Shown in pieces: positions 36,741-46,366 of a stretch of DNA of 46,366 bases (positions within the stretch are counted from its first letter, which is position 1; each line of letters starts with the position of its first letter). The notes under the pieces were generated by a model. The model did not search any database and was not told the origin of the DNA. It worked only from the letters and a program-made list of their open reading frames with translations. A program made the position numbers and the translations under genes. The DNA comes from an uncultured Sulfurovum sp. GTDB taxonomy: Bacteria > Campylobacterota > Campylobacteria > Campylobacterales > Sulfurovaceae. Where the stretch lies: assembly GCA_902727935.1 (NCBI GenBank), contig CACVAX010000012.1, forward strand, positions 1 to 46,366. The letters run 5' to 3'.

Positions 36741-38192
36741 TTAGCTTCTTGTGGTTAAATTATTCTCTTTTATCTTCTTAATCATACTTGATATCAAGGT
36801 AATTTTCTTCTCTTCATCTTCCAAAGAAGATTGTGCTGAAAGATTAAACTGTTCCATTTTTGAGTCTAAAAAGCCCGTGTTGAATTTTCCACTGATAAAA
36901 TCTTCATCTCGGACAATCTCTCGATGCAGAGGTATGTTCGTTTTGAGTCCATCAATGTTATACTCATCCAACGCTCTTTTAGCTTTTTTGACAGCCCCTT
37001 CCCAATCCAATGCTGAAACAATTAATTTTCCAATCATCGAATCATAGTTAGAAGGTGTTTCATAGCCCTCATACAAACTCGAATCTATTCTTACCCCAGG
37101 TCCTCCAGGGGTTAGATAGTTTTTAATGGTTCCAGCCGATGGCATAAAATTATTTTGAGGATTTTCAGCATTAATTCTAAACTCAATAGCATACCCTCTA
37201 AATTTTATCTCTTCTTGTAAAAATTGTAGTTTATCTCCTTCAGCTATCTGTATCATACGTTGGATAATGTCTACACCTGAAATCACTTCAGTCACAGGAT
37301 GTTCTACTTGAACACGCGTGTTCATTTCAATAAAATAGATATTGTCCTCTTCATCAATTAAGAACTCCAAGGTTCCCACACTTTCATAGCCCAATTTAAA
37401 CATGGCTTTGCTTGAAACACGATACAACTCTTTTCTAACCGTGGGACTTAGTCGAGGCGAAGGAGCAATCTCAATTACCTTTTGATGTCGTCTTTGAATG
37501 GAACAATCTCTTTCCCCTAAATGCACCACATTTCCATGACTGTCGGCAACAATCTGTACTTCTATGTGTCGTGGATTTTCAACATATTTTTCAATAAACA
37601 CTTCCCCTTTTCCAAAGTATTTAATCGACTCATTGGTGGCAGCATCAAACATCTTTGAAAACTCTTTTCCTTTTCTAACAATCCTCATACCACGACCACC
37701 TCCACCAAAAGCAGCTTTAATAATAATAGGAAAACCTATCTCTTTGGCAATCTTTTCACCCTCTTGTTTATCTAAAATGGGGGTATCTGTTCCTTCAAGT
37801 ACAGGAACACCTATCTCTTTCATGGCTACTTTCGATGCCATTTTATCACCAAACAATTCAATGTGTTCAGGTTTTGGACCAATAAAAATAATCCCATTGT
37901 CACTACACGCTTGTGCAAATTCAGCACTTTCAGATAAAAAACCATAACCTGGATGAATCGCATCACAATTTGCTTTTTTTGCCATAGAGATAATACGTTC
38001 ATAGTTTAAATATGCCTCAACAGGGTTTCCCATAATAGGATAACACTCATCAGCTTTTCTAACCCACACTCCATGAACATCAACTTCAGAAAAAACCACT
38101 ACTGATTTCATTTCCAACTCCTTACACGCTCTGATAATTCTTAACGCGATTTCACCTCTATTGGCAATTAAGACTTTTGATATTTTACGCAT
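36741..38192 (-). CDS. Biotin carboxylase subunit, PycA/CfiB-type
   Basis: A 483-residue biotin carboxylase. It starts KISKVLIANRGEIALRIIR, has the ATP loop KAAFGGGGRGMRIV, ERDCSIQRRHQKVIEIAPSP and the metal-site EMNTRVQVEHPVTE. It is ~35 residues longer than AccC, with a C-terminal helix SSMIKKIKENN like the tail of the split pyruvate carboxylase of Campylobacter (PycA). It may therefore belong to pyruvate carboxylase or the 2-oxoglutarate carboxylase of reductive-TCA bacteria rather than to acetyl-CoA carboxylase. The biotin-carrying partner is not here. I use the ATG at 38192: the TTG four codons earlier falls in the ribosome site TTGGAG. Confidence 0.85.
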   Translation of the reverse strand: MRKISKVLIANRGEIALRIIRACKELEMKSVVVFSEVDVHGVWVRKADECYPIMGNPVEAYLNYERIISMAKKANCDAIHPGYGFLSESAEFAQACSDNGIIFIGPKPEHIELFGDKMASKVAMKEIGVPVLEGTDTPILDKQEGEKIAKEIGFPIIIKAAFGGGGRGMRIVRKGKEFSKMFDAATNESIKYFGKGEVFIEKYVENPRHIEVQIVADSHGNVVHLGERDCSIQRRHQKVIEIAPSPRLSPTVRKELYRVSSKAMFKLGYESVGTLEFLIDEEDNIYFIEMNTRVQVEHPVTEVISGVDIIQRMIQIAEGDKLQFLQEEIKFRGYAIEFRINAENPQNNFMPSAGTIKNYLTPGGPGVRIDSSLYEGYETPSNYDSMIGKLIVSALDWEGAVKKAKRALDEYNIDGLKTNIPLHREIVRDEDFISGKFNTGFLDSKMEQFNLSAQSSLEDEEKKITLISSMIKKIKENNLTTRS

Positions 38193-38345
38193 TGTTTGCT
38201 CCAATTAATTAAGATAGCCAAATTCTACTCTTTTAAAAAAAATATCTCTTCACCTATTTTATCTCTTTTGTTATCTATTTTTATTCAAAATAGTTTCTAT
38301 TGTTAATTATAAATAGCACAAAAAGCATTATTTTTTCTTTTTCGT

Positions 38346-38360: not shown

Positions 38361-39236
38361 ATGAAAAGAGAAACCCTTAATAAAAAAACAAAAATTTCAA
38401 ATGACATACTTTACTATATCTATACGCATATAGAGATAGATATCAATATGGATGAACTTGCTCAAAACTTTCATATTAGCAAACCCTACATGCACAAAAT
38501 TTTTAAAGAAATTTTTGCTAGAAACATTTACCAAAGCATTAAGTCCATTAGATTACAAAAAGCCTCTTCACTTTTACTTACCAATAAATACTCGACCATT
38601 ACCGAAATAGCCTCCTTGTGTGGCTACAGTTCGCACACTTCATTTATACGTGTCTTTAAAGAGAGATTTTTAGTGACCCCTACCCAATGGCGAAAAGGGG
38701 CTTATAAAGCCTATTCAAAAAGTATCTTGCAAAAATCTAAAAAAGCCATCGCCTCCAATGCAAACTTTGATAACCTCGAAGCCACCATTGTTAAAATGCC
38801 TTGCATCGAAGCCTATTACATAAGACACAATGGCTACAACGATGCAATTAAACAGACTTGGCAAAAAATTCAGACATGGAGTTACAGTAATGACATTAGC
38901 CACTACCAACACATTGCTCTTTTTCATGACAACCCTGTCATAACCGACCCAAAATTCTGCCAATATGTTGCTTGTATCGAAGTGATGGACAAAAAGTTAG
39001 AGGAGAACCAACGCTTACCTAAATTCAAAATTTCTGATGGGACGTATGCAAGATTTGACATCAAAGGGGTTGATGGAGATTTACTAAAATTCATCCATTG
39101 GCTCTACAATGAATGGCTACCAAAAAGTGAATACGAAACAACCACCAAACCTCCTTATGCTATTTATAAAAAAAATAAATATTTAGCAGATGATAATAAT
39201 TTTGAGTTGAGTTTTTACCTATCAATTATGTTTTAA
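38361..39236 (+). CDS. AraC-type regulator with GyrI-like ligand domain
   Basis: A 291-residue regulator with the DNA-binding part first. Two helix-turn-helix units lie in residues ~28-115 (MDELAQNFHISKPYMHKIFK and ITEIASLCGYSSHTSFIRVF), followed by a linker and a C-terminal GyrI/SbmC-like domain (~135-291: ATIVKMPCIEAYYIRHNGYN, YARFDIKG, FIHWLYNEWLPKSEYE). This MarA-Rob-like order is typical of Rob/BltR-type regulators that bind small hydrophobic or drug-like ligands. It may control the adjacent glutamate-synthase-like gene 64 bp downstream on the same strand. Confidence 0.88.
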   Translation: MKRETLNKKTKISNDILYYIYTHIEIDINMDELAQNFHISKPYMHKIFKEIFARNIYQSIKSIRLQKASSLLLTNKYSTITEIASLCGYSSHTSFIRVFKERFLVTPTQWRKGAYKAYSKSILQKSKKAIASNANFDNLEATIVKMPCIEAYYIRHNGYNDAIKQTWQKIQTWSYSNDISHYQHIALFHDNPVITDPKFCQYVACIEVMDKKLEENQRLPKFKISDGTYARFDIKGVDGDLLKFIHWLYNEWLPKSEYETTTKPPYAIYKKNKYLADDNNFELSFYLSIMF

Positions 39237-40933: not shown

Positions 40934-41194
40934 TTATTCAGGTCTTGAACCTCTCTCTTTATGGTCTTTAGGCATACACGCAAAATATTTTTTATCAGGT
41001 GTATTTTGACATGTTCCTGTTAAAGTATCGCCTCTTGGTGTCTCTACGCTACACGTTGTGTTCTCATCTTCACCTTCACACGCTGTAATGGCTTCTGCTG
41101 GGGGTTGACCATTTCCACCTCTTGGAGGTCTGTTATCTTGTGCAAAACTTGCTGTAATGGCTAAAATAGCCAAGGTTGTTATAATTTTTTTCAT
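40934..41194 (-). CDS. Small secreted four-cysteine protein
   Basis: An 86-residue protein with a signal peptide (KKIITTLAILAITASFA, cleavage before QDNRPP). The mature ~68 residues are Pro/Gly-rich at first (RPPRGGNGQPPAE), then contain a four-cysteine module: AITACEGEDE, TTCSVETPRGDTLTGTC and KKYFACMPKDH. The TPRGDTLxGTC element recurs in small secreted proteins of many Proteobacteria but no function is known to me. I use the ATG at 41194, which has AAGGATT upstream and 24 bases after the predicted transcription start. A frame open to 41314 would cross its own promoter. It is controlled by a 27-bp operator shared with the ferredoxin and CotH units. Confidence 0.8.
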   Translation of the reverse strand: MKKIITTLAILAITASFAQDNRPPRGGNGQPPAEAITACEGEDENTTCSVETPRGDTLTGTCQNTPDKKYFACMPKDHKERGSRPE

Positions 41195-41224
41195 TTTTGA
41201 ATCCTTAATTGTTTTGATAATCTC

Positions 41225-41277
41225 ATTATAGGGTTTTTGATTAAACCGTGGGTAACCAAAAGTAAATGCTTGGTAAC
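41225..41277 (-). promoter_or_regulatory. TTAC-repeat operator (site A) and promoter of the small secreted protein gene
   Basis: Read on the minus strand, the element 41277-41251 is GTTACCAAG-N2-TTTACTTTTGGTTACC with TTAC at offsets 2, 13 and 23. Exactly 20 bases later comes TATAAT (41230-41225). No -35 hexamer is present; the last TTAC sits where it would be, as in promoters activated by PhoB/OmpR-type regulators. Confidence 0.75.
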
Positions 41278-41301
41278 AGAGCCAAATACCCTTAACCTTT
41301 T

Positions 41302-42966
41302 TTACGTTGCCCACGTACCAAACGGCTGTTTTTCAAATGCCATTTGCCCATCAGCTCCTTTGTAGATATTAATCCATGCTTCCCAATTTTCCTTATCCAT
41401 CTCAGGATAATCGGTACGATAGTGACTACAACGGCTCTCTTTACGCATGAGGGAGGCTTTGAGTTTCATCTCGGCACTGATAACCATATTAATGGTTTCG
41501 TGAGCCAGTCGTAGTTCATGCATATCAGAGGCTTTGAGCATCGGGAGATGATGGTCACGTAACTCTTCCACATAACTCAATGCTCCTTGCAACATACGCT
41601 CTTTTTTAATGTAAAGCACAAAGTTGGGAATCATAATCCCTTGCAAGGTTTGGGTAACCCATGCAGGAGAGTAACCTTTTTTTCGATTGAGAGGTGCCAG
41701 TATTTCCTCTTTGATATGCTTTTGTTTCTCTTTTGAAATGGTCGACAAAGTGGTATCAGTAGCATATTTTGCAGCAGCTTCACCAGCAATCGCCCCTTGT
41801 ACCGATGAACCTGCCATAGATGAGCCTATTTGGGTATAAATCGCTCCAGCCATATACGACCCCAACGCATCTCCTGCTGCATAAAGCCCTTTAATGGTCG
41901 ATTCGCATTGGTCATTGATGGGTACGAGTCCTTCGGATTTATGGATGGACAATCCTGCTGAAGCACCCCCCACACTCGCCATGTTCATACCAGGAGGAAG
42001 CTTTCCCTCTCCATGTGGAGGTGGAGAACCTCTTCTATCCTCTTTGTCGCCACTTCCTGGTGGTGGTCCTTGGTCAATCAAACCCTTTGGTCGATAAGGT
42101 CCCCCTTTGGTGGTTGAACGGTTTCCTGCATGAGGAGGTCCCATGCTTACAGGTCCTCCATTTTCATACGCTTGATAGTTTAAGTCCACTCCTAAGTCAT
42201 GACGAATACCTACACCTGTGGTACTAGGGATTTGCTCAAACATACCATGCCATCCATCAAAAGTAGCAGCTGCATTTTTAGCAGAGCCTGAGTGTCCATC
42301 GTTCCACTCTTTGCCTGTTACTTTTGCACCAATGTTGTACGCCATCACTGTACCATCATGGGTTAAGTCACAAATAGGAAAACCATTGGGTTTAAATCCA
42401 CCTGCACCCGTACATAAAATCACACTTTTTGCACGGAAAAGATGCAAGGTTTGCGTATCCAAGCTAAACCCTGCTGCTCCTGCAATTTTGCCATTTTCTT
42501 TGATAAGATGGGTGATGCTAATACGTTCCAACATAGCAATTTCACGCTCTTTAATCGGTTTTTGTAAAGGGTCTCTACAGAGTGCTTGGTCAAAATATCC
42601 CCACGCTTTAAGCTCATCTACCCTAGCTTTTGAGTGTTCTGCCATCTGTTTGGTATAGACGGCATTGTTTGTACCAAGGGCTGAATAAGAGACCTGTTTG
42701 GTAAACTCGTCGAGTGAGATTTTGGAGCTTTTTTCATCAAAAGAGAAAACCCCTTTGGCAAAGGGTGTTTGTCCTGATGTTCCAACACCTCCTTTGGCAA
42801 CCAATAAAACTTTAGCTCCTGCATCATGGGCTTTAACCGAGGCAAACACACCTGCTACCCCACCACCAATCACCAATACATCGGTTTCATGTTCCATTTC
42901 CACAAAACCATCAGGGTCAATTACAGGGCGATTAACCTCTTGCTTTTGCTCAAGCAATGGTGGCAA
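41302..42966 (-). CDS. FAD-dependent oxidoreductase, FrdA/AprA-like; Tat signal out of frame
   Basis: The 554-codon frame codes a flavoprotein of the fumarate reductase/adenylylsulfate reductase superfamily. It shows the FAD-binding TDVLVIGGGVAGVFASVKA, the second FAD segment GLYAAGDALGSYMAG, and the family C-terminal RCSHYRTDYPEMDKENW. Its nominal TTG start at 42966 lacks a ribosome site. The real start is surely the ATG at 43036, which encodes a Tat signal peptide in another frame (see next entry). The shift lies within 42953-42970. A ~60-residue Gly/Pro/His-rich insertion (residues about 265-325) interrupts the substrate-side domain, and the usual H-x-MGG substrate motif reads MASVGG. The substrate is unknown. 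Last gene after ferredoxin and cytochrome b genes. Confidence 0.8.
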   Translation of the reverse strand: MPPLLEQKQEVNRPVIDPDGFVEMEHETDVLVIGGGVAGVFASVKAHDAGAKVLLVAKGGVGTSGQTPFAKGVFSFDEKSSKISLDEFTKQVSYSALGTNNAVYTKQMAEHSKARVDELKAWGYFDQALCRDPLQKPIKEREIAMLERISITHLIKENGKIAGAAGFSLDTQTLHLFRAKSVILCTGAGGFKPNGFPICDLTHDGTVMAYNIGAKVTGKEWNDGHSGSAKNAAATFDGWHGMFEQIPSTTGVGIRHDLGVDLNYQAYENGGPVSMGPPHAGNRSTTKGGPYRPKGLIDQGPPPGSGDKEDRRGSPPPHGEGKLPPGMNMASVGGASAGLSIHKSEGLVPINDQCESTIKGLYAAGDALGSYMAGAIYTQIGSSMAGSSVQGAIAGEAAAKYATDTTLSTISKEKQKHIKEEILAPLNRKKGYSPAWVTQTLQGIMIPNFVLYIKKERMLQGALSYVEELRDHHLPMLKASDMHELRLAHETINMVISAEMKLKASLMRKESRCSHYRTDYPEMDKENWEAWINIYKGADGQMAFEKQPFGTWAT

Positions 42967-43036
42967 CGCCTACGGCTGTTCCTGCCCATCCTAAAAAGGA
43001 TCTTCTTGAAAATCCATCTATTTTATCTTGCTTCAT
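42950..43036 (-). pseudogene. Tat signal peptide of the flavoprotein, separated by a +1 frameshift
   Basis: The ATG at 43036 has GGAG seven bases upstream and overlaps the end of the cytochrome gene by 14 bp. It reads MKQDKIDGF-SRRSFLGWAGTAVGVATIA, a classic twin-arginine signal, then hits TGA at 42952-42950. The mature flavoprotein continues in the next frame. One extra base in this stretch, real or from sequencing, explains the split. Confidence 0.85.
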
Positions 43037-43664
43037 GGTGTGTCTCCTTTGGTGAGAGGTATGTTTTTAGTAATAAGATTGACCCTGTAACAGCTAAAAG
43101 AATCATCCATATTGCCATTGCTTTTTCGGCATGTCTTCCCATGTCTATGGCGTGATAGGTGGCAAAACCAATAAAAAGTAGAGAGAAAATACCATGTAGC
43201 AGTTTCCATTTTTTATAGCTCATACCCATTTTGTTACGAAAAATTGAAGTTGCACCCAATACAAACATTAAGATATACGCAACCAATCCCATAATCTGAC
43301 CTGTTGTCTCAAAGGTGGTAATGAGTTTGAGAAATGCATCCATAGGAAGCAGACCCGATTCAAAAAATCTTGGTACAACAATAAACAGAGGGTGAAATAT
43401 AAAGACCAAAATAAAGGTATAGCCAATTATTTTATGCCATTTTAAAACTTCTTTAAAATGGTAAAGTCGCATCATGCTGTTGGCATGAGAGAGAAAAAAC
43501 TGTGCCGTCATCATAAAAAATGCAAAGAGTGTTAGAACTGAAAGAGACTCTTTTAAAATGGAACGCACAGGATACTCTCCCACAGCCCATAAAAGCAAAG
43601 GCACTCCAATAAAGCTTAAGAGTCCCATAAAAAGAGTTTGTTGCTTGAGTGTTGTTTCCATCAT
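43023..43664 (-). CDS. Bis-haem ferric-reductase-like membrane cytochrome b
   Basis: A 213-residue protein with about six membrane helices. Two helices each carry a histidine pair 14 residues apart: KWHKIIGYTF...FHPLF (near residue 80) and LLHGIFSLLF...TYHAID (near residue 165). This is the haem-ligand pattern of the ferric reductase/MsrQ/NOX transmembrane domain and places one haem near each membrane face. No FAD/NAD domain is attached. I take the ATG at 43664, overlapping the ferredoxin stop (TAATG). It probably passes electrons across the membrane from the ferredoxin to the Tat-exported flavoprotein. Confidence 0.8.
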   Translation of the reverse strand: MMETTLKQQTLFMGLLSFIGVPLLLWAVGEYPVRSILKESLSVLTLFAFFMMTAQFFLSHANSMMRLYHFKEVLKWHKIIGYTFILVFIFHPLFIVVPRFFESGLLPMDAFLKLITTFETTGQIMGLVAYILMFVLGATSIFRNKMGMSYKKWKLLHGIFSLLFIGFATYHAIDMGRHAEKAMAIWMILLAVTGSILLLKTYLSPKETHHEAR

Positions 43665-43879
43665 TATCCCCAAGCTACGATGACAGGAATGGTTTTTTCA
43701 GGTGAGATAATAATGGCATCCACAGGACAATACATTCGGCACAAGTGACAAATTTGACAATCAGCCACATACATAATAACAGCTTTACCCGATTTTGGGT
43801 CTAGGCGAAGTACATCGGTAGGACAAGCTCTGACACAATCTCCACAACCGATACACCCTCTAATGGATGAGATAGACAT
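43664..43879 (-). CDS. 2[4Fe-4S] ferredoxin
   Basis: A 71-residue ferredoxin. It has two complete cluster motifs: CIGCGDCVRACP (residues 9-20) and CQICHLCRMYCP (about 41-52). The spacing and short C-terminal tail resemble bacterial-type ferredoxins and the iron-sulfur subunits of AprB-like complexes. No signal peptide, so it is cytoplasmic. First gene of the operon ferredoxin - cytochrome b - flavoprotein, behind the operator at 43937-43963. It likely feeds electrons to the membrane cytochrome. Confidence 0.9.
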   Translation of the reverse strand: MSISSIRGCIGCGDCVRACPTDVLRLDPKSGKAVIMYVADCQICHLCRMYCPVDAIIISPEKTIPVIVAWG

Positions 43880-43910
43880 CTGTTTTCCTTTAAATTATTG
43901 GATATGCATC

Positions 43911-43963
43911 ATTATAATAATTTAAGTCAAACCGTGGGTAACCAAAAGTAAATGGTTAGTAAC
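43911..43963 (-). promoter_or_regulatory. TTAC-repeat operator (site B) and promoter of the ferredoxin operon
   Basis: On the minus strand 43963-43937 reads GTTACTAAC-N2-TTTACTTTTGGTTACC. TATAAT lies at 43916-43911, again after exactly 20 bases, and the following CACGGTTT also equals site A. The predicted transcript starts about 25 bases before the ferredoxin ATG. Confidence 0.8.
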
Positions 43964-43971
43964 ACTCTATT

Positions 43972-44421
43972 TTAGCTATCGGGACACATATCAGCAGAAG
44001 AGGTGGTGTTACTGCTACTCACAATATTCACACGGTAACAGTCCAAATCATCCACTTGTTTATAAATTTCAGAAGTTGTAATCACCAGTGTTTCACCCGT
44101 ACTAATGTTAATGCTTAAGCCACTTTTAGCCACCCCATAGGTGTAGGTTGACCCATCGCCCATAAGCATCTCTCCATCATCTGAAAATTTGGTATAGAGT
44201 GTACTGTCGGATGAGGTATCATAAAGCACCCAAATGCCCACAACATTCTGTTCTCCAAAAATAACATTTTCACCAAAATATCCATAAGCATTATAAAACC
44301 CTGAAAGTTCAGCGTTGTTATAAGTATCAAAGCCACTGGTATCATACGTCTCTTCGGAGGTATCACACCCTAAAAGTAGTAGGAGTGAAGTTATTAGTAA
44401 TGATAATTGCATTAATTTCAT
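43972..44421 (-). CDS. Small lipoprotein of unknown function
   Basis: A 149-residue lipoprotein with a signal peptide and lipobox LLLGC (Cys19). The mature part is strand-rich with GIWVLYDTSSDSTLYTKFSD and a repeated Tyr/Thr/Ser pattern (STYTYGVAKSG). It resembles a lipocalin-type or stress-response beta-barrel such as those checking a measured value with GIW openings, but no family can be named. Two C-terminal cysteines (DLDCYRVN, SADMC) could pair. It follows the CotH-like gene by 56 bp and may be co-transcribed, although a weaker version of the operator lies in the gap. Confidence 0.6.
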   Translation of the reverse strand: MKLMQLSLLITSLLLLLGCDTSEETYDTSGFDTYNNAELSGFYNAYGYFGENVIFGEQNVVGIWVLYDTSSDSTLYTKFSDDGEMLMGDGSTYTYGVAKSGLSINISTGETLVITTSEIYKQVDDLDCYRVNIVSSSNTTSSADMCPDS

Positions 44422-44452
44422 GGTTTCTTCTTTATATTTTAATTTTACGAAT

Positions 44453-44473
44453 GGTAATCAAATAGTTGATAAC
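44453..44473 (-). promoter_or_regulatory. Weak variant of the TTAC operator (site D)
   Basis: On the minus strand GTTATCAAC-N2-TTTGATTACC matches the first 14 positions of the shared element with two changes and ends in TTACC, but it is 6 bases shorter. TATAAA follows after 16 bases. May be a decayed or lower-affinity site. Confidence 0.35.
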
Positions 44474-44477
44474 CCGT

Positions 44478-45917
44478 TTACTCTAAATAACTCTCAACAG
44501 CACTCTCACGACTGGTTGCATGGGTTTTAAGTGTACTAATCGCTTGTGAAAATTCACTGCTTTTATTATTACCTAAAAAGCTATACCCACTTCTCTCCGT
44601 TATGGCATACGATTCAATCAATGAAGAATAGGTGTCATAGGTTGCTTTTATGGTATCAACATTAAAGGCATCTTCACTTACCTCTTTAACATAAGCATCG
44701 TATTGGGCTTTATAGACATCATCAGCATAAATTTTGGCAATTAAAGGCCAAGAGTTGTTTGAAAGATTGGAGAAGTCTAACTTTAATGCACCACCAAGTT
44801 TACCCTCTTGTAGGGCTTCATTGTTGTCCCATGGAATCCATGTGAGTTTTCCATTTTCAGGATTGTTATAAAGGTAGTAGTTATGTGCCATGAGTCCATA
44901 AGTGTCCCAGTTCTGAATAATGCCATTAACAGCCAAATATTTTAAGAAAACATCCACATCAAAAACAGCTTCTAAATTGCTTCTCCATGTTTGTGCATCG
45001 GTGGTACGGGTAGTGGCATGTAACGCTGAAAAGAGTGCCTCAATGTCTGACCAATCTTCATCATCTTCATTGGTTTTTTTAGTGAAATCATCTTTGTTAA
45101 ATGTACCTTCTGCAAAATTGGCACTGCCATCTTCTGGTTTATAGAGGTTTCCTTCATCACTTGAAAACTGTGTCTCAACTACTGTGCCATCAACCTCTTC
45201 AACCAAGGTATAGAGTCCAAAATATTCAGCTCCATTCCCATGGTCAACATAGAGTTCATAAAATCCTGTATTTGATACCACCATACCTGCATTTTTAAAG
45301 ACATCAGCAGCTACTTTTTCACGTACAAAAGCACTGTCATCATAGTTATTTTTTAGAGAAAACTTTTTAAATCCATAAAAGCGTTGGTTTTTAATTTGTG
45401 GATAGGTGTCTTCAAACTCATCAAAATCCAGTTTAAACGCAAGTTTTAAAATACCACTTTGCCAAGAAGTCTGTAAAGAAGAGTTTCCTTTAAATCGAAT
45501 ACCCACACGGTACCACTCTTTCCCCTCATAATAAACATCGGCTGGAACAAAAATAGGGTCTTCATCGGTATCCACAAGCGTATTGTTCCTAGAGCTTTGT
45601 CCAAATGTACCATAGGTCTGTGTCATGTCATCAAGCATACTTTGCCAACGCTCTGAGCTAACCACAAAATCTAAACGCTTCACTTGGGTATCATCAAAAA
45701 CCTCTTCAAAGTTTGGGTCTACATTTTTACTGTGTGTCTCATCTGTCCAATCGGTCGCTTCAAAATCGGTATCGGTGTAAGTTAGGGTGGTATTGGTATC
45801 CGTATCGGTTGTATTTGATTCTGTGCTAGAAGCGTCACTTGAACTACCACATCCACTAAATGTAAGTGAGATACTTACAAAAAGTAAAAGAAATAATTTC
45901 ATACTTGCTGTTTTCAT
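44478..45917 (-). CDS. CotH-kinase-family lipoprotein
   Basis: A 479-residue lipoprotein (signal peptide, lipobox FSGC at Cys22), then a Ser/Thr/Asp-rich linker to residue ~50 and a CotH domain. Visible family segments are VRLDFVV-like VKRLDFVVSSERW, RVGIRFKGNSSL, KKFSLKNNYDDSAFVREKVA, EYFGLYTLVEEVD, GNLYKPEDG and TWIPWDNNEAL with the acidic metal/catalytic residues. CotH of Bacillus is an atypical protein kinase acting on spore-coat proteins. Surface homologues in Gram-negative bacteria have unknown targets. It has its own copy of the shared operator 55 bases upstream, tying it to the ferredoxin-cytochrome-flavoprotein operon. Confidence 0.88.
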   Translation of the reverse strand: MKTASMKLFLLLFVSISLTFSGCGSSSDASSTESNTTDTDTNTTLTYTDTDFEATDWTDETHSKNVDPNFEEVFDDTQVKRLDFVVSSERWQSMLDDMTQTYGTFGQSSRNNTLVDTDEDPIFVPADVYYEGKEWYRVGIRFKGNSSLQTSWQSGILKLAFKLDFDEFEDTYPQIKNQRFYGFKKFSLKNNYDDSAFVREKVAADVFKNAGMVVSNTGFYELYVDHGNGAEYFGLYTLVEEVDGTVVETQFSSDEGNLYKPEDGSANFAEGTFNKDDFTKKTNEDDEDWSDIEALFSALHATTRTTDAQTWRSNLEAVFDVDVFLKYLAVNGIIQNWDTYGLMAHNYYLYNNPENGKLTWIPWDNNEALQEGKLGGALKLDFSNLSNNSWPLIAKIYADDVYKAQYDAYVKEVSEDAFNVDTIKATYDTYSSLIESYAITERSGYSFLGNNKSSEFSQAISTLKTHATSRESAVESYLE

Positions 45918-45945
45918 TGTTTATCCTTTGTTGATTAGTGACTTA

Positions 45946-45998
45946 ATAGTACTCTTTAAAGGAAAATGATAGGTAACCAAAAGTAAATGGTTGGTAAC
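45946..45998 (-). promoter_or_regulatory. TTAC-repeat operator (site C) and promoter of the CotH-like gene
   Basis: On the minus strand 45998-45972 reads GTTACCAAC-N2-TTTACTTTTGGTTACC, followed after exactly 20 bases by TACTAT (45951-45946), a good -10 box. The predicted transcript starts about 22 bases before the ATG. Confidence 0.78.
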
Positions 45999-46045
45999 AG
46001 TTTTTTGAGAGTCAATAGAGATGCAAAAAATAAAGTAAAACGTCT

Positions 46046-46258
46046 CTACAACTTATCATGCTCTCTTGGGTCAACACTTGGAGCATTTGATAATAAGTCT
46101 AAAGCATGTTTTCGTGAACCTCTTAATGCTCGTTTTTCTAAATGATTTAAGGTCTTCAAGGTAGCCAATTTTTCGGCAATTGCATTAATAATAAATTGAT
46201 TCATCGAAACATTACCTTTTAACAACTCAATATCACTTTTCTTACTCCACGACAACAA
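46046..46258 (-). CDS. Truncated ribbon-helix-helix antitoxin-like protein
   Basis: Seventy codons with a doubtful TTG start. The segment VSMNQFIINAIAEKLATL is the second half of a ribbon-helix-helix DNA-binding domain, and the tail RALRGSRKHALDLLSNAPSV with DPREHDKL is the toxin-binding end seen in HicB/CopG-type solo antitoxins. The N-terminal beta strand and first helix are missing or replaced, because a transposase gene starts 40 bp away on the other strand and the frame is closed by a stop upstream at 46273. No toxin gene lies next to it, so it is probably a stranded remnant. Confidence 0.55.
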   Translation of the reverse strand: MLSWSKKSDIELLKGNVSMNQFIINAIAEKLATLKTLNHLEKRALRGSRKHALDLLSNAPSVDPREHDKL

Positions 46259-46298
46259 GAAGAAAAGATGCTAAAATAAGAGAAAAGTAAGAGAAAAA

Positions 46299-46366
46299 AT
46301 GAAACATATAAAAGCAATAAAGTCAATATTAGAAGAATATTACCCATGGCATGAGGCAAGAGTGGA
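46299..46366 (+). CDS. Start of a transposase gene (IS4-like), cut by window end
   Basis: An ATG at 46299 opens MKHIKAIKSILEEYYPWHEARV and runs off the edge. The LxxxYPWHEARV pattern is like the N terminus of IS4-family transposases (PWHxAR segment). The left end of the element must lie between about 46245 and 46298, but no inverted repeat can be fixed with one end only. Confidence 0.5.
   Translation, partial: MKHIKAIKSILEEYYPWHEARV

Follow-up and report, generated by a model that had tools for sequence, protein, structure and literature searches.

Three near-identical promoter elements in a 46,366-nucleotide (nt) stretch of DNA from an uncultured Sulfurovum sp. (the window) are very probably operators of a single OmpR-type two-component system, whose histidine kinase and response regulator are encoded on a different contig of the same genome. 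This genome (G000) is a draft of 2,395,011 bases in 60 contigs, 84.6% complete with 5.8% contamination; the window's contig is C12 and that of the regulator-kinase pair is C13. The principal features are as follows, where R1 is a model made from nine operators of relatives, the window's own sites being excluded:

41225..41278, minus strand: four-repeat operator and -10 (TATAAT, 41225-41230) of the small Cys protein gene; R1 E 1.4e-13
43911..43964, minus strand: four-repeat operator and -10 (TATAAT, 43911-43916) of the ferredoxin-cytochrome-flavoprotein genes; R1 E 2.4e-12
45946..45999, minus strand: four-repeat operator and -10 (TACTAT, 45946-45951) of the CotH gene; R1 E 2.1e-11
G000:C13 481-1680, minus strand: histidine kinase, from an ortholog search
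G000:C13 1673-2347, minus strand: OmpR-type response regulator, Trans_reg_C

A sequence-only reading of this stretch had described three near-identical elements of 27 base pairs (bp), each exactly 20 bp from a -10 box. The elements are present as described, beyond chance: the 28-mer GGTAACCAAAAGTAAATGGTTGGTAACA is matched at 41251-41278 (one mismatch), 43937-43964 (one) and 45972-45999 (none), with no match expected from 100 dinucleotide shuffles, and a scan of the whole genome at up to three mismatches returns these three sites only, each before a gene (reversed control, 0). The -10 lies the same 20 bp after GGTTACC at all three, and all are intergenic and oriented toward the next gene. With a weight matrix built on nine operators from other genomes they score 63.4, 57.9 and 54.1, compared with a next-best window score of 2.6 and a maximum of 16.5 over 300 dinucleotide shuffles. 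R1 likewise ranks them first in the genome (E 1e-13 to 2e-11; 150 of 630 candidates scored); its fifth match, C18:114505 (E 0.08), falls within an open reading frame, on the strand opposite to it, and was taken as chance. The loose pattern TTAC-N7-TTAC-N6-TTAC is not rare, occurring exactly at six places in the genome, three of which are the operators, and at two in the control. Three near-identical copies within 5 kb might also be expected if the elements were a small, non-regulatory dispersed repeat. This explanation is extremely improbable: the elements face the gene that follows and keep a constant spacing to the -10, diverged versions retain the TTAC cores and the -10 while the remaining sequence changes, and in relatives the operators occur on separate contigs, ahead of the same gene families.

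The three TTAC direct repeats noticed earlier, at steps of 11 and 10 bp, are present in all three operators, but the true count is four: a further repeat sits between the third TTAC and the -10 (GTTTAATC, GTTTGACT and ATTTTCCT in the three sites, weakest in the CotH operator). Operators of relatives also consist of four direct repeats (GTTACCAACC, ATTTACTTTTG, GTTACCCACG, GTTTGACT). Because repeats 1 and 3, and repeats 2 and 4, are each 21 bp apart, we read the operator as two boxes in tandem, each made of two repeats. The start of the third TTAC lies 25 nt 5' of the -10, a distance constant over 27 aligned sites that are gap-free from the first repeat to the -10. This alignment (A5) contains 27 of the 38 four-repeat sites available at that point: G011 CotH, G011 PycTM and G030 Cys were left out as close copies, and L104, L105, L109, L110, L118, L121, L125-Spy and L130-Spy were left out for an extra base, a weak repeat or a weak -10, or as not needed. 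In L104 and L105 one additional base separates repeats 2 and 3. The operator thus has both the tandem direct repeats and the fixed distance to the core promoter that mark an OmpR/PhoB-type regulon.

The sequence-only reading had placed the regulator outside the window, and the C13 pair is its likely candidate. A receiver, a winged-helix Trans_reg_C domain and a kinase, as in OmpR/PhoB-type two-component regulons, are predicted for this system: the regulator ortholog of G011 matches PF00072 (8.9e-27) and PF00486 (3.9e-20), and the G009 kinase has HAMP and HATPase_c above cut-off and HisKA below it. A structure model of the kinase matched the cytoplasmic core that kinases share, with CpxA as one of many hits, and was uninformative on the sensor domain; the G011 kinase gene is split over two frames (L034:1381-2590). 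A two-component pair near the operators, which the earlier reading had proposed to look for, adjoins CotH and its operator in G009 and G011 (in G011 with a two-gene toxin-antitoxin-like pair, labelled by eye, in between), but lies on another contig in G000. The C13 regulator is 84-89% identical to these CotH-adjacent regulators and 46-50% identical to its next own paralogs. Model R2 (the proximal box, i.e. the one nearer the promoter, plus the -10; 11 sequences from relatives, two of them regulator promoters) gives the promoter of the C13 regulator as its first match in G000 (E 4.2e-4; 150 of 1476 candidates scored), followed by the Cys and ferredoxin operators, and R1 gives the same promoter as its fourth match (E 0.0067). 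Its proximal box lies at the same distance from the -10 as in the window operators. Regulator promoters carry the proximal box alone in G000, G009 and G030 and both boxes in G011, G089 and G090.

The operator and the regulator occur together across genomes. Among 34 genomes of the genus, the exact pattern of the GGTAACCAAAAGTAAATGGTTGGTAACA type (up to three mismatches) is found in 4, and operators detected by model in 6, including all five with a kinase ortholog of at least 62% identity, all other kinase matches being at 41% or below. Among 175 genomes of the family, the regulator occurs in 11 (E<=1e-75) and the operator in 13 (E<=0.001): all 11 regulator genomes have an operator, versus 2 of 164 without the regulator (Fisher p 9e-16, uncorrected for relatedness). 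Across the order, model R3, which includes the window's own sites, detects the operator in at least 9 of 398 genomes, with 14 candidates scored per genome and weak sites missed. The new genomes include G191 and G402, with the site before a Spy-like gene 5' of a regulator and directly before a regulator, respectively. In a regulator tree of 97 rows (76 of 80 named loci, 16 of 22 own regulators and 5 others), the C13 regulator belongs to a clade of 14 rows (support 100/100) with members from Sulfurovaceae, Sulfurimonadaceae and Sulfuricurvum; the regulators of Campylobacter showae and Campylobacter concisus are placed outside it. Regulators identical to those of G089 and G090 occur in two records of Sulfurovaceae, to which the family is accordingly assigned.

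Behind the operators of relatives we observed CotH, the Cys protein, the ferredoxin operon, Lcl_C lipoproteins and PycTM plus Porin_O_P, as well as Spy/CpxP-like (LTXXQ) genes, the regulator pair and several small proteins with no assigned role; for one G030 site, located where its contig ends, no gene is visible. Run unfiltered on 70 kb from five diverged loci, R1 gives 8 matches at E<=1, 7 of which are 5' of genes of this cluster. Among the loci of relatives scanned for it, LTXXQ is above cut-off in L128 and L130 (beside the pair) and in L104, and below it in L125. A single box precedes a gene adjoining a related two-component pair in L131, L132 and L133.

These loci also offer several side observations. 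The adjoining gene (L131:2941-3855, L132:8850-9788, L133:6344-7315) encodes an EF-hand-type protein with Pro-rich stretches (Pfam run in L133 only); the L133 record bears the title Helicobacter pylori PMSS1, a label that may be wrong, since the record is a metagenome bin and its regulator clusters with those of Arcobacter in the tree. PycTM-domain (Pycsar-effector-type) proteins are paired with Porin_O_P at L034:7363-9055 and L036:10780-12457; the pair shares this operator in G011 and, judged from sequence similarity, also in G030 and G090 (Pfam in G011 only), an unusual setting for a defence gene. The kinases of L123, L127, G009, G011 and G030, the Cys protein and the flavoprotein contain Pro-rich stretches with His or Arg, while the own kinase has only GHREHLPFEG; a shared ligand of these proteins, e.g. 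a metal ion, is possible.

A degenerate fourth site had been proposed in the window at 44453-44473. A site is there, but it is probably half an operator, with the proximal box only:

44442..44474, minus strand: proximal-box-only site and -10 (TAAAAT, 44442-44447) of the gene for a lipoprotein-like protein of 149 amino acids (aa); weight matrix from relatives

With this matrix the box ranks 4 of 92,668 window positions, and its score or better is reached by 2 matches in 300 shuffles (0.0067 expected). It is, however, missing from the cmsearch output with R2, both for the window plus six loci (E<=5) and for the whole genome (E<=10). A match at 38183 (score 14.8) was not counted, since 0.14 such matches are expected per window; this weak proximal-box-like sequence (38183-38215, plus strand) lies ∼145 bp 5' of an AraC-type regulator gene, which is located at 38361-39236, ∼2 kb from the Cys gene.

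Several points weigh against assigning these sites to the C13 system. R2 places the CotH operator sixth, behind two places elsewhere (C18:114505, E 0.04, and C43:33865, E 0.13); the eighth match in the diverged loci, L128:9810, falls at an unrelated position; and the site preceding Spy in L128 and those preceding the regulator and CotH in L129 were seen by eye and are unlisted by the model. The constancy of the spacing owes partly to how the sites were found, related genomes are non-independent samples, and further operator sites may be missing from the draft G000. Finally, G031 (83% complete) and G047 (99% complete, and missed by the order-wide R3 search) carry an operator match but lack one to the regulator at E<=1e-75. 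Together with the 22 Trans_reg_C matches in G000 and the nearby AraC-type gene, these two genomes would suit a different owner of the sites, either another OmpR-type regulator of the same genome or the AraC-type one. We consider such an owner very unlikely: the operator tracks the C13-type regulator in 11 of 11 family genomes, the C13 regulator promoter is the best proximal-box match in G000 among the candidates scored, and the recognition helix of the C13 regulator is unlike those of its aligned paralogs, the nearest included. Direct repeats at helical steps are, moreover, untypical of AraC-type sites. The assignment to the OmpR/PhoB family made by the sequence-only reading is upheld by the co-occurring regulator, the adjacency to CotH in relatives and the proximal box before the regulator gene.

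We propose that two dimers of the C13 regulator would bind head-to-tail on the two tandem 21-bp boxes, with the promoter-proximal box over the -35 position, where the bound regulator would substitute for the missing -35 contact and recruit RNA polymerase to the -10. At the regulator's own gene, and probably at the lipoprotein gene at 44421, the proximal box alone would serve. Regulator binding, activation and autoregulation are predicted here from sequence. Such a layout would suit activation by regulator dimers that cover the -35 position, as reported for Sulfurospirillum PceP and as for PhoB at pstS, where four repeats take over the -35 role. The overlap of the proximal box with the place of the -35 would also allow the bound regulator to repress by covering that position, and phosphorylated PhoB is reported to act as a dual regulator, according to where its site lies (PMC10294691). 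Repression is nonetheless unlikely: there is no good -35 to compete for, and the spacing resembles that reported for PceP, which has repeats overlapping the -35 and is taken as an activator (PMC7755780).

It is instructive to compare the system with known ones. PhoB is a phosphorylated OmpR-type regulator that uses direct repeats strictly spaced from the core promoter (PMC10294691) and binds in tandem, head-to-tail (PMC4415409). The E. coli pho boxes are like the present operators in both repeats and spacing, but the half-site differs, the regulator is below the PhoB cut-off (TIGR02154, 144.9 vs 296.2 bits), and among the targets no phosphate gene was seen except Porin_O_P in relatives. The CpxR box is a direct repeat, GTAAA-N5-GTAAA (PMC12802237); the operator reads GTAAC-N5-GTAAA-N6-GTAAC on the plus strand of the window, with GTAAC replacing the GTAAA of CpxR in two of three half-sites. 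Spy/CpxP-like LTXXQ genes adjoin the pair in some relatives, possibly a further Cpx likeness, but most targets differ, and the G011 ortholog is below the CpxR equivalog cut-off (NF008199, 121.3 vs 341 bits). The RstA box has tandem TACA at 10 bp in TACATNTNGTTACA and binds a head-to-tail dimer (PMC4117788); the half-site here is GTTACC or TTTACT, unlike the RstA box, and the G009 ortholog is below the RstA equivalog cut-off (NF007977, 121 vs 330 bits). Among the 25 best NCBIfam models for each of two regulator orthologs, none reached its cut-off. Within the same phylum, PceP (RR2) of Sulfurospirillum is an OmpR-type regulator taken as an activator, with direct repeats CTATW-N17-CTATW overlapping the -35 (PMC7755780); the repeat position is similar, but the repeat differs and the targets are organohalide respiration genes. 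The OmpR-type regulator of DccRS in Campylobacter jejuni enhances a few genes for putative periplasmic or membrane proteins (PMC9449129), a likeness by description, the Campylobacter showae and concisus regulators being in another clade. The half-sites partly resemble the CpxR and RstA boxes, but the orthologs fail all three equivalog cut-offs; the system would function like Cpx, RstA and PhoB and is filed as none of them. A limited literature search found no description of this regulator-operator system.

C13 begins 480 bp past the kinase stop, and C12 ends 367 bp 5' of the CotH operator. The right end of C12 (window 46238-46366) is multi-copy and occurs 6 times in the genome, in several cases where a contig ends, and the start of C13 is another multi-copy sequence, with 14 places (own copies included in both counts); both are probably mobile elements. 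Because both contig ends are multi-copy, C12 and C13 could be one interrupted locus; the first 480 bases of C13 were unmatched in the six stretches around the copies of the C12 end, and no copy linking the two contigs was found there.

The genes behind the window operators are:

40934..41194, minus strand: small exported 4-Cys protein, 86 aa; no Pfam/NCBIfam family (scanned as the longer frame 40934-41314)
41302..42966, minus strand: fumarate-reductase-like flavoprotein; FAD_binding_2 5.2e-20, Succ_DH_flav_C 7.6e-12
43023..43673, minus strand: membrane cytochrome, Ferric_reduct family; PF01794 5.4e-11
43664..43879, minus strand: 4Fe-4S ferredoxin, first gene behind the second operator; Fer4_7 6.1e-10
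43972..44421, minus strand: lipoprotein-like 149-aa protein; no Pfam/NCBIfam family
44478..45917, minus strand: CotH lipoprotein; PF08757 1.9e-68

A fold search with a model of the Cys protein (mean predicted local distance difference test score, pLDDT, 67) returned nothing significant (best E 0.88). The twin-arginine translocation (Tat)-like start of the flavoprotein, at 43036 (MKQDKIDGFSRRSFLGW..., 42950-43036, minus strand), is out of frame with the rest of the gene (41302-42966), reflecting a frameshift or an assembly error.

Because the targets in relatives include Lcl_C, PycTM/porin and Spy/CpxP-like genes, their types suggest, by analogy, a Cpx/Rst-like envelope or periplasmic response. 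A more far-reaching but less probable reading is a novel, Cpx-like envelope-sensing system of Campylobacterota, in which a kinase with a small periplasmic sensor domain may induce Spy-like, CotH, 4-Cys and Lcl_C proteins, a porin with its PycTM-domain partner, and a ferredoxin-cytochrome-flavoprotein chain that could carry electrons to the periplasm. A specific regulator is here paired with a set of promoters from sequence alone, and other Campylobacterota can be searched with the operator model. The difference between targets with two boxes and regulator promoters with a single one lends itself to a direct test. One predicted control would unite CotH lipoproteins, the 4-Cys protein, a fumarate-reductase-like flavoprotein with a Tat-like start, PycTM-porin pairs and Lcl_C lipoproteins, and the families under this predicted control are poorly understood ones.

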